This document shows, piece after piece, positions 17,066 through 21,451 of a stretch of DNA of 64,000 nt. A program made the translations under genes and the position numbers. Source of the stretch: Pseudomonadota bacterium (GTDB taxonomy: Bacteria; Pseudomonadota; Gammaproteobacteria; Steroidobacterales; Steroidobacteraceae); the NCBI GenBank assembly GCA_021798335.1, contig JAJZMI010000052.1, forward strand, positions 1 through 64,000. The letters are read 5' to 3'. Each line of letters begins with the position of its first letter. The first letter of the stretch is position 1. The notes below the pieces were generated by a model. It made no database searches, was not told where the DNA came from, and saw nothing but the letters and a program-made list of their open reading frames with translations.

Positions 17066-17138
17066 GGGCCTGTAGCACAGCGGTTAGTGCAGGGGACTCA
17101 TAATCCCTTGGTCGTAGGTTCGAATCCTACCAGGCCCA
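17066..17138 (+). tRNA. tRNA-Ile2 (anticodon CAU; lysidine-dependent type)
   Basis: Cloverleaf: acceptor GGGCCTG/CAGGCCC, anticodon loop CTCATAA, T-arm GTAGG-TTCGAAT-CCTAC; resembles the Ile(CAU) consensus rather than tRNA-Met; CCA not encoded. Confidence 0.85.
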
Positions 17139-17150
17139 CTGTATCCCCAT

Positions 17151-17299
17151 GGCTCTGTTCGCAAAACGTATTGATGCGGACAGGCTATTTGCCGTTTTTG
17201 CGGCAAAAATAGGTGCAAAATCAGCACCCGCACTCAGGGCTGTAAGCTATTGAGTTTATTGCTTTAATGAGAGAATCAATACGTTTTGATAACAGAGCC
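17151..17299. mobile_element. MITE-like non-autonomous element (149 bp)
   Basis: Terminal inverted repeats GGCTCTGTTCGCAAAACGTATTGAT / GGCTCTGTTATCAAAACGTATTGAT (23/25) flanked by the 8-bp direct repeat ATCCCCAT (17143-17150 and 17300-17307); no ORF. Confidence 0.88.
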
Positions 17300-17419
17300 A
17301 TCCCCATCCAGACCGCTTCGGCTGTCAAATACGCTTTGAAACTCAATAGATTCGCGACCGTCACGAGATCGTCCCGCTTCACTGAGCGTCAAATGCCGAT
17401 GGCGCGCTGAGCGGGACGC

Positions 17420-19378
17420 TCAAGCGGCGAGCTCGGCCTCGAGATGATGGGCCAGCTCGGCAATGGTCGGATAATCGAACAGCTCGGTCAGGTCGATCTT
17501 GCCGGGATATTCCTGGTCGATCCGCTCATGGATCTCGATCAGCTTCAGCGAGTTCGCGCCGAGTTCGAACAAGTTGTCGTTGACATCGAGGCGCTTGCCG
17601 CCGAGGACCGCGGCGCAGATCCCCTGCAACTTCGCCTCGATCGCGCTGCGGGCCGCCGGCGCACTAGCCCCGTGCGCGGCGCGCAACGCCGCGAGCTCGC
17701 TCAGCTGCGCGGCGAATGTGCCGTTGAGATAGTCCTGCTCGAGCAGGTGCCGCTGGATCTTGCCGCTGGTGGTCTTGGGGATGCGCTTGACGGGCACCAC
17801 CGCGGCCACCTCCAGACCGGTCTGCTCGTTGAGCACGCGCGCCGCGGCGGCCGCGAGCGGCACGAACCCCTCGAGCTCGCCGCGATGCAGCACGAACAGC
17901 ACCAATTGCTCGACATCCTCCCCGCCGGCGCGCACCCCCGCGGCCACGACCTTGCCCAGCTCCAAGCCCTCGATGCGCTGGACGATCGACTCCAGGTCGT
18001 GCGGGTAGTAGTTCTGGCCGTTGACGAAGATGATCTCCTTGGCGCGCCCGGTGATGTAAAGATCACCCTGATGCACGACCGCCAGATCCCCGGTGCGCAG
18101 CCACCCATCGGCGCTGAATGCCTCGGCGTTCGCCGCCGGGTCCGCGTAATAGCCCTGCGTGACATTCAACCCGCTGATCTGCACGTGACCGACATGCCCC
18201 TGCGGCAGCGCCCGGTCCGTGTCATCGACGATGCGCACGCTGCAATAGGGAATGGCCTTGCCTTCCGAGATCAGCTCGATCCCCGCCTGGGCCCCGGCCG
18301 GCAGCAGCCGAATCGGCTCCCCGACGGCCAGGTGATGACGGTCGGCCACCAGCGTGCGCAGCGCCTCCCCGGGCGGCGGAAAACTCACCGCCAGCGACGC
18401 CTCGGCGAGCCCGTAGACCGGATACATGGCATTGCGGCTCAGATGCGCCGGCGCGAGCCGGTTCAGGAACTGCTCGCACAACGTCACTGAGATCGGCTCG
18501 GCACCGTTGAAGATCAGCCGCACGCTCGACAGATCGAGCCCATCGACGGGACGCTCCCCGAGCACCTTCAGATAGTGTTTGTAGCCGAAGTTCGGCGAAC
18601 ACAGGATCGAGGCGCGCACGCGGCTGGCGAGTTCGAGCCACAGCAACGGCCGGCGAACGAACAGTTCAGTCGGCATGAAGTGCATGTGCATCCGATTGAA
18701 GAACATCACCAGGTGCATGCCGATGAGGCCCATATCGTGCGTCAGCGGCATCCATGAGAGAGTGACGTCATGTTCATTGAGGCTGGCCATCTCAGTCGCG
18801 CCGCGGACATTGGCCAGGATGTTGCCGTGAGTGAGCACCACGCCCTTGGGCTGGCTGGTCGAGCCGGAGGAGAACTGGATGAAGGCCACGTCCTGCGGGT
18901 CAGCCCGGTGCACCTCGCCGGGCTGCGAGATGTCATCGAGGCCATCGACCAGGAAGGCTCGACGGCGCAAGCGCTCGAAGGTCTCGTCCTGGCCGCTCTC
19001 GGCGGCACAGGCCCCGATGCGCTCGAGCGCCCGCCGCTCCGTGTAGATGAACGGCTCGCCCAGCCGCCGCGCAATGCGCAGCAGCTTCTGCCGGTGCTCC
19101 TCGCTGATCCCCCCCGCCACGGGCACCGGAATGATTCCCCCCAGAATGGCGGCCCAGAACGCGTCGATGAATTGCTCGTTGCTCCCGAGCAACAGAATCA
19201 GCGTGTCCCCGCGGCGCGCCCCCAGCCGCTGCAGGTGATAGAGAATGCCCAGCGCCCGCTCGTGCAGTTCCGCGAACGACACGGTACGCACATCATGCTC
19301 GCCCTCCAGGTAAGTAATCGCCCCCGGGAAAACGCGGTTGGCTTCCAGCAGCTCGGTCAGGGTCGTGACATTGGGCAT
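17420..19378 (-). CDS. Fatty-acyl-AMP ligase with C-terminal acyl carrier domain
   Basis: FIQFSSGSTSQPKGVVLTHGNILAN, GYYADPAANAEAFSADGWLRTGDLA, KEIIFVNGQNYYPHDLE; phosphopantetheine motif LFELGANSLKLIEIHERI. Confidence 0.9.
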   Translation of the reverse strand: MPNVTTLTELLEANRVFPGAITYLEGEHDVRTVSFAELHERALGILYHLQRLGARRGDTLILLLGSNEQFIDAFWAAILGGIIPVPVAGGISEEHRQKLLRIARRLGEPFIYTERRALERIGACAAESGQDETFERLRRRAFLVDGLDDISQPGEVHRADPQDVAFIQFSSGSTSQPKGVVLTHGNILANVRGATEMASLNEHDVTLSWMPLTHDMGLIGMHLVMFFNRMHMHFMPTELFVRRPLLWLELASRVRASILCSPNFGYKHYLKVLGERPVDGLDLSSVRLIFNGAEPISVTLCEQFLNRLAPAHLSRNAMYPVYGLAEASLAVSFPPPGEALRTLVADRHHLAVGEPIRLLPAGAQAGIELISEGKAIPYCSVRIVDDTDRALPQGHVGHVQISGLNVTQGYYADPAANAEAFSADGWLRTGDLAVVHQGDLYITGRAKEIIFVNGQNYYPHDLESIVQRIEGLELGKVVAAGVRAGGEDVEQLVLFVLHRGELEGFVPLAAAAARVLNEQTGLEVAAVVPVKRIPKTTSGKIQRHLLEQDYLNGTFAAQLSELAALRAAHGASAPAARSAIEAKLQGICAAVLGGKRLDVNDNLFELGANSLKLIEIHERIDQEYPGKIDLTELFDYPTIAELAHHLEAELAA

Positions 19379-20703
19379 CAGCGGCGTTCCGGCTCAGGAG
19401 TCGACTGTACAGGTGAATTCGAGATTTCTCGCCTGCTTGGCGTGCCCCGGGACATCCTGTCCGCCTGATCCCCGCGGGAAGTCTGCGGTGAACGAGCTTC
19501 CCGATCCGCGCAGCGCGAGTAGATGTCCGATTGCGCCGCCAGCGGCGATCCTCCCATCGTTCGGTCTTTCGGCGGCTGGTAAGCACCGGCGGCCCGCGCC
19601 ACCAGAAGGTATTTCATGAAGTTGCGGTTCGTTTCCGCTTCATGTTCGCTTACCGTGGATCGATCCACGGGATCAAAGAAACAGGTAGGGTCCTCCGCCA
19701 TGTAATCCCCGGTATGGTAGAGCGCCATGGCGCGACACCCGCCGCAGGTGTACTGATAACGGCAGCGACCGCAGCGGCCCCTGAGTCGGGAGCGGTCGGT
19801 TATCTCAGCGAAGAGCGCGCTGGAGTGAACCAGCTCATCAATGGGCGCTTCCAGGACATTCCCCGCATTCAGCGCATCGAGGAGCACGGGACAGAATGAA
19901 ACATCCCCCTCCGAGTTGAGGGTGAGCCAACTTCCGACCCAGCAACCGATGGAGGGGTTTCGCGGCACGGTGTTGTTGCAAAGCCCGCCGGATACCTCCG
20001 CGTGCAGCTCGGGTGACAGGAAATACGGCGTATAGCTCACATAGCCGTGTGGATGGCGGCGCAGCACCGGATGGAAGTACCGCTCGAGATCATTGCTGTC
20101 GAAACCCATGCCGGCAAAGCAGCCCGATCCCGCCCCCCGCGGCACCAACGGCGAGCGATTGTATGCGATGTCGTGCTGCACGCAGAACGCGACGGTCTTC
20201 TCGAAGCTCTGCGTATTGTATTTGCCGATCGTGATCACCACGTGCTGGCCCAGCCCGAGTTCCGCGCAATCTTCAAGCACCCGCAGCGTCTGATCCGACT
20301 CATTGTCCCGGGTCCGGCGGTTTTCGTCATCGATGGCGTTGAGGCCCACCACGATCCGCGCCCGACCTCGTGTCACATCCCGGATCTTCTCCAAACGCTC
20401 CCGGGTGAGCTTCTTGCAGTTGCTCAAGACGGAGCACCGATAGCCCAGATCCACGGTCAGACGCAGCAGATCCAGGGCATCTTTGCGCAGCAAGAACTCG
20501 CCCCCGCTCCATGCCATGGTGTGGACCCCGAGGCGGCGCGCGGGAATCATGATCCGATCCCGGATTTGCTCGAGGCTCAATTCTTTTCGTACACTCTGTC
20601 GCAACTTTTTCCGATCATTGCTGCCGGTCATGCACATCGGGCAGCGCAGATTGCACCGCCGCGTCGCTTCAAAGTATACGACCTGGAACTGGTACTGCGG
20701 CAT
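19378..20703 (-). CDS. Radical SAM/SPASM domain protein
   Basis: CNLRCPMC radical SAM motif; SPASM-like CGRCRYQYTCGGCRAMALYHTGDYMAEDPTCF; 1-nt stop/start overlap with downstream acyl-AMP ligase. Confidence 0.9.
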   Translation of the reverse strand: MPQYQFQVVYFEATRRCNLRCPMCMTGSNDRKKLRQSVRKELSLEQIRDRIMIPARRLGVHTMAWSGGEFLLRKDALDLLRLTVDLGYRCSVLSNCKKLTRERLEKIRDVTRGRARIVVGLNAIDDENRRTRDNESDQTLRVLEDCAELGLGQHVVITIGKYNTQSFEKTVAFCVQHDIAYNRSPLVPRGAGSGCFAGMGFDSNDLERYFHPVLRRHPHGYVSYTPYFLSPELHAEVSGGLCNNTVPRNPSIGCWVGSWLTLNSEGDVSFCPVLLDALNAGNVLEAPIDELVHSSALFAEITDRSRLRGRCGRCRYQYTCGGCRAMALYHTGDYMAEDPTCFFDPVDRSTVSEHEAETNRNFMKYLLVARAAGAYQPPKDRTMGGSPLAAQSDIYSRCADREARSPQTSRGDQADRMSRGTPSRREISNSPVQSTPEPERR

Positions 20704-21451
20704 TTGAAGTCTCGCTTGTTCCCGGGCCAACGGCCCTGCGGACAGCCTCATCCGCTCGCGAGACCGGAAGTGTCAACGCACGGACGTGACCACGCTTGAG
20801 AGAGATCAAATAATGACATGGGGTTTCCCGCCGGGCACACCAGTAACGGCGAGGCGGCCACCGATCACCACTTCCCATGGTGCCGAGCCGGCGCAACGCA
20901 CGGGTGGCGCCGGAACGGGTCCGAGAGTGGACCCTCGAGGGCCGCGGCGCAGGCCTGCGGCAGCGCCGCGGTAGTCACGCTGATGACTGATCCGCCGGCT
21001 CGCGCCGTACCGATCGAGGGCATGGCGAGGCCGCCAACGCGGCGGTCAAGGTTGTGGTCGAGTTTCACCCGGCAAACGGAAAGGCGAAAGCGTTGCGTCT
21101 TTCCCCGCAGCGCTGACTGCCGAGAACCGGTCGTGAACATTCCGATTCACCTGGACCGAAGCGCATGGGTCGAGCGGCCGGCCTTCTGTCCCCGCCGCCG
21201 CGGGGGCTCACCCTGCACCGGGAGGCGGTGGGGCGTGACTGGGCGATGGTGCGGACGGCGAAAAGCGCAGGGCGGTCGAACGGACACTCCCGCATTGGTG
21301 CCGGACGGTTGTACCGAACCGGCCGCCCGAGCCGCGGCGCCGCAGCGTCGGTGTGTCGATGTTTGATCACGGGGGCGCACTTGAGCTTGCGGCCATTCGG
21401 GGCGAGACTGTCCAGGCCGATCCTGGCGACTCGGTACGCTCCCCCATAGCC

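Follow-up and report, generated by a model that had tools for sequence, protein, structure and literature searches.

An IS1595-linked MITE with an 8-bp target duplication beside a tRNA(CAT) gene in a proteobacterial genus

Introduction

Elements without a transposase that resemble the one described here are known from both archaea and bacteria. A MITE of Haloquadratum walsbyi, 165 bp long with 25-bp inverted repeats and 8-bp direct repeats, has been tied to the IS1595 element ISHwa6 (Kamoun et al., 2013; PMC3852290, Table 4). The length of the inverted and direct repeats and the attribution to IS1595 are the same in our case; however, the H. walsbyi MITE is archaeal and present in seven copies in one genome, and the likeness is drawn from its published description. 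MITEPye1 of Paracoccus yeei is a low-copy, intergenic element that carries no transposase, has TIRs and direct repeats and folds into a long hairpin (PMC11578231). Our element resembles it in all these respects, but MITEPye1 is linked to IS1182 and not to IS1595. Finally, autonomous IS1595 elements from a species of the same genus (genome G218) and from the Burkholderia glumae plasmid p35s1p have the same or a related 25-bp TIR and an 8-bp TSD; unlike our element they encode a transposase, and only the ends are in common.

Here we analyse a 149-bp element found in a 64-kb stretch of proteobacterial DNA (the window). It is almost certainly a non-autonomous MITE that a transposase of the IS1595 family, acting in trans, moved to a site beside a tRNA gene.

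Results

Structure and setting of the element

The original prediction described a 149-bp ORF-free element bounded by TIRs with 23 of 25 identical positions and flanked by a perfect 8-bp duplication, with a dyad in its interior, and the sequence bears out each of these features (Table 1). The window ORF list contains no ORF of at least 80 aa inside the element, which is AT-rich (44% G+C as compared to 66% for the window). The repeat-finding tool gives TIR arms of 27 nt, because the duplication starts and ends with AT. When the whole window was screened for inverted pairs with a perfect outer 9-mer, at least 20/25 identity and a spacing within 3 kb, the TIRs of the element were the sole pair above 20/25 and also the sole pair with matching 8-bp flanks; among the 25 longest of the 71 inverted pairs in the window, they were the only near-perfect one.

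Table 1. Features of the element and of the adjacent tRNA gene (window positions).
Feature	Position	Strand	Evidence
MITE, IS1595-type, 149 bp	17151..17299	+	TIRs and TSD; homologues in G180 and G186; empty site
Left TIR, 25 bp, GGCTCTGTTCGCAAAACGTATTGAT	17151..17175	+	same TIR on the IS1595 element of G218
Right TIR, 25 bp; reverse complement GGCTCTGTTATCAAAACGTATTGAT	17275..17299	-	repeat search
Left TSD copy, 8 bp, ATCCCCAT	17143..17150	.	sequence; present once at the G192 empty site
Right TSD copy, 8 bp, ATCCCCAT	17300..17307	.	sequence
Internal dyad CTATTTGCCG...CGGCAAAAATAG	17184..17211	+	sequence and alignment with G180
tRNA gene, CAT anticodon, intronless here	17066..17138	+	ARAGORN; Rfam RF00005, 75 bits

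The element is bordered by the tRNA(CAT) gene on one side and, on the other, by a convergent gene that stops at 17420. Counted from the tRNA discriminator base (A at 17138), the left duplication copy begins 4 nt downstream; the 5 nt first given differ from this only trivially. ARAGORN called the gene tRNA-Met(CAT) and set its end at 17139; its naming as tRNA-Ile2 in the original prediction is nevertheless likely to be correct. Rfam returned the tRNA only, plus a sub-threshold antisense match across it. On the other side of the element, the translations of the minus-strand region 17420-20751, read by eye, include a fatty-acyl-AMP-ligase-like protein, whose C-terminus resembles a carrier domain, beside a radical SAM/SPASM-like protein; they may belong to a biosynthetic cluster.

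The same tRNA(CAT) gene is split by a group I intron (Rfam RF00028) of 237-280 nt in the five relatives examined (G001, G002, G010, G180 and G233; L093-L097). The intron sits between anticodon base 36 and base 37, and split matches suggest its presence in most of the 58 genomes of the genus; the gene is intronless in the window genome and in over a dozen others. A known parallel is the group I intron of the Azoarcus pre-tRNA-Ile (PMC3984707).

An empty site in a congeneric genome

The two flanks of the element were joined and used as a query across the genus. An empty site, which had been proposed as a check, was found in the congeneric genome G192, where the joined flanks align over all 229 bases with 98% identity. 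This genome has a single ATCCCCAT, and the gap corresponds exactly to the element plus one duplication, so that the insertion would most simply be younger than the split from G192. The original prediction of a recent insertion agrees with this. Three further neighbours were inspected, G186, G232 and G011, and all have other sequence downstream of the same tRNA. A repeat-like stretch (GGACCTTCCATCC...GGTCGGACTTGC) is common to G232, beside the tRNA (L064), and to G180, next to the MITE copy of that genome (L044, about 1780-1890).

Copies in the genus

The window belongs to contig C173 of an assembly that is 80% complete and consists of 235 contigs. A second copy of the element was not found in this 80%-complete assembly, and the TIR pattern occurs there at the two ends of the element only. 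A 15-bp match in contig C191 was attributed to chance, as it lies in GC-rich coding-like DNA without TIR or element. When 200 genomes of the family were searched for the TIR with three mismatches allowed, matches were confined to the genus, namely to G180, G186, G218 and the genome of the window.

G180, another species of the genus, contains a 149-bp copy at a different locus and in the opposite orientation, identical to the window element at 132 of 149 positions and, inside the TIRs, at 84 of 99. It is flanked by ATAAAATA/ATAAAATG, a 7/8-bp duplication. The copy in G186, also another species, is decayed and diverged, 162 bp long, at a different locus and flanked by ATAAACAG/ACAAACAG; the similarity of its interior to the other two copies scored 18 and 21 as compared to shuffle maxima of 14 and 15 (200 shuffles). 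A covariance model built from the three copies retrieved no further copy in the 58 genomes of the genus. The MITE is thus found in 3/58 of them, with differing loci and TSDs. The expectation of a multi-copy element holds as regards homologous copies with other duplications in relatives, but not within the genome of the window, where it is single. BLASTN of the element against plasmids gave nothing, the only two phage matches (26 bases each) were judged to be chance, and the TIR pattern was absent from viral contigs.

Folding and possible effect on the tRNA

As a single strand, the whole element adopts a long hairpin fold (-66 kcal/mol, z -8.2), mainly because of the TIRs. The interior alone has a z of -3.1 here, as compared to -0.5 in G180 and 0.8 in G186, where it is not unusually stable. 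G180 retains the 10-bp dyad, and one of its pairs shows a compensated change (C-G to T-A); this is too little to claim selection. A scan for plus-strand terminators at the element gave none, and the hairpin is not followed by a T-run; the suggested role as a terminator is therefore not upheld. Two terminator-like sites were found on the minus strand, and both depend on a stem that differs in G180. It seems to us improbable that the internal hairpin is a structure of the MITE that functions as RNA or DNA and now affects the 3' end or the stability of the tRNA precursor. The element appears to do nothing for the tRNA; its insertion into the spacer between the tRNA and the convergent gene was probably close to neutral, and neutrality is the simplest interpretation.

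Partner IS1595 elements

A full-length IS with the same TIR, which had been suggested as a search target, was found in G218, a third species of the genus. It is a complete element of 1048 bp, with the ends GGCTCTATTATCAAAACGTATTGAT and GGCTCTACTCTCAAAACGTATTGAT, and is flanked on both sides by ACAGACAT, a perfect 8-bp TSD. Its intact 325-aa ORF is an IS1595-family transposase (NCBIfam NF033547, 145.7 bits with a cut-off of 75, E 2e-42), which also passes PF12762 (48.8, cut-off 27). In a fourth species, G004, the contig breaks off within a closely related IS and leaves an end of it that has the same TIR; the C-terminus of its transposase is 93% identical to that of G218 over 115 aa. In the 235 contigs of the window genome, an assembly that is 80% complete, no relative of the G218 transposase was found.

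The flanking DNA of the G180 MITE is homologous to that of the G004 IS, and both elements occupy the same position in it, after ATAAAATA. This common target fits a transposase shared by the two; alternatively, one may have replaced the other. The homology of the flanks extends over about 150 bp (L044, about 1350-1561; L034, about 2540-2711), and the flank of the G180 MITE, judged by eye, resembles the N-terminus of a phage-type integrase.

The nearest plasmid relative is the B. glumae element, annotated as IS1595 family, whose transposase is 45% identical. By direct comparison, its 25-bp TIR, GGCTTTGTTCGCGTTATGTATTGAT, is identical to the left TIR of the window element at about 20 of 25 positions, and it has an 8-bp TSD, TAAAATAA at both sides. 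The TIRs of the G218 IS and of the B. glumae element both start with GG. Within its TIRs the latter (L098, 802-2321 or so) also carries a passenger gene, with the annotation NTF2-like protein. A scan of 85,462 species genomes with the 24-base TIR pattern, limited to exact matches, returned the known relatives and repeated IS ends in two alphaproteobacterial MAGs (Rhizobium and Rhodoplanes); a short C-terminal ORF at these ends is IS1595-like by eye, and its 39-aa piece has no profile match.

The ends of the element could also recall another family, since IS6/IS26 elements typically have TIRs starting with GG and 8-bp duplications, and the element starts with GGCTCTGTT and has a duplication of 8 bp. 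The ends of that family start with GG, have a G at position 7 and are conserved over 14 bp (PMC6807381). However, in the same genus the whole 25-bp TIR occurs on elements of the IS1595 family, and an IS6 element with this TIR was met neither in the 200 genomes of the family nor in the exact-match scan of the 85,462 species genomes. An origin as an IS6/IS26-family MITE is thus very unlikely. Of the two families originally put forward for its mobilisation, IS1595 is favoured by the full IS with the same TIR and the NF033547 match, and IS6 is not needed.

The possibility that the MITE is an internally deleted form of the G218 IS gained no support, as the similarity of the interiors is not above that of shuffled sequences (G180 is borderline, 16 with a shuffle maximum of 16). 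The MITE is tied to this IS by its ends, duplication length and target only; the interiors have no convincing similarity.

Discussion

The element has defined boundaries, an empty site, copies elsewhere and a partner IS that matches it in TIR and in duplication length. From these sequences we infer that an IS1595-family transposase moved this MITE. An IS that has these 25-bp ends too, for instance of the G218 type, would provide such a DDE transposase in trans. The enzyme would bind the TIRs of the MITE and integrate it at ATCCCCAT, an 8-bp target located 4 nt beyond the tRNA(CAT) gene; repair of the gaps would then generate the 8-bp duplication. On the scale of the genus, the insertion is recent.

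That the element is instead a hairpin of the tRNA gene, conserved for regulation or processing and MITE-like in appearance only, is hardly credible: the stable fold and the dyad with its compensated pair would suit such a hairpin, but the empty site in G192 refutes this origin, other sequence stands beside the same tRNA in G186, G232 and G011, the homologous copies are away from this tRNA, and the terminator scan, the contribution of the TIRs to the fold energy and the ordinary stability of the interior in G180 and G186 all speak against it.

As an IS1595-linked MITE, the element is an ordinary new example of a class already described. It adds a bacterial family of such MITEs, with a partner IS and a clean empty site, which is useful in annotating this proteobacterial genus and has little wider consequence.
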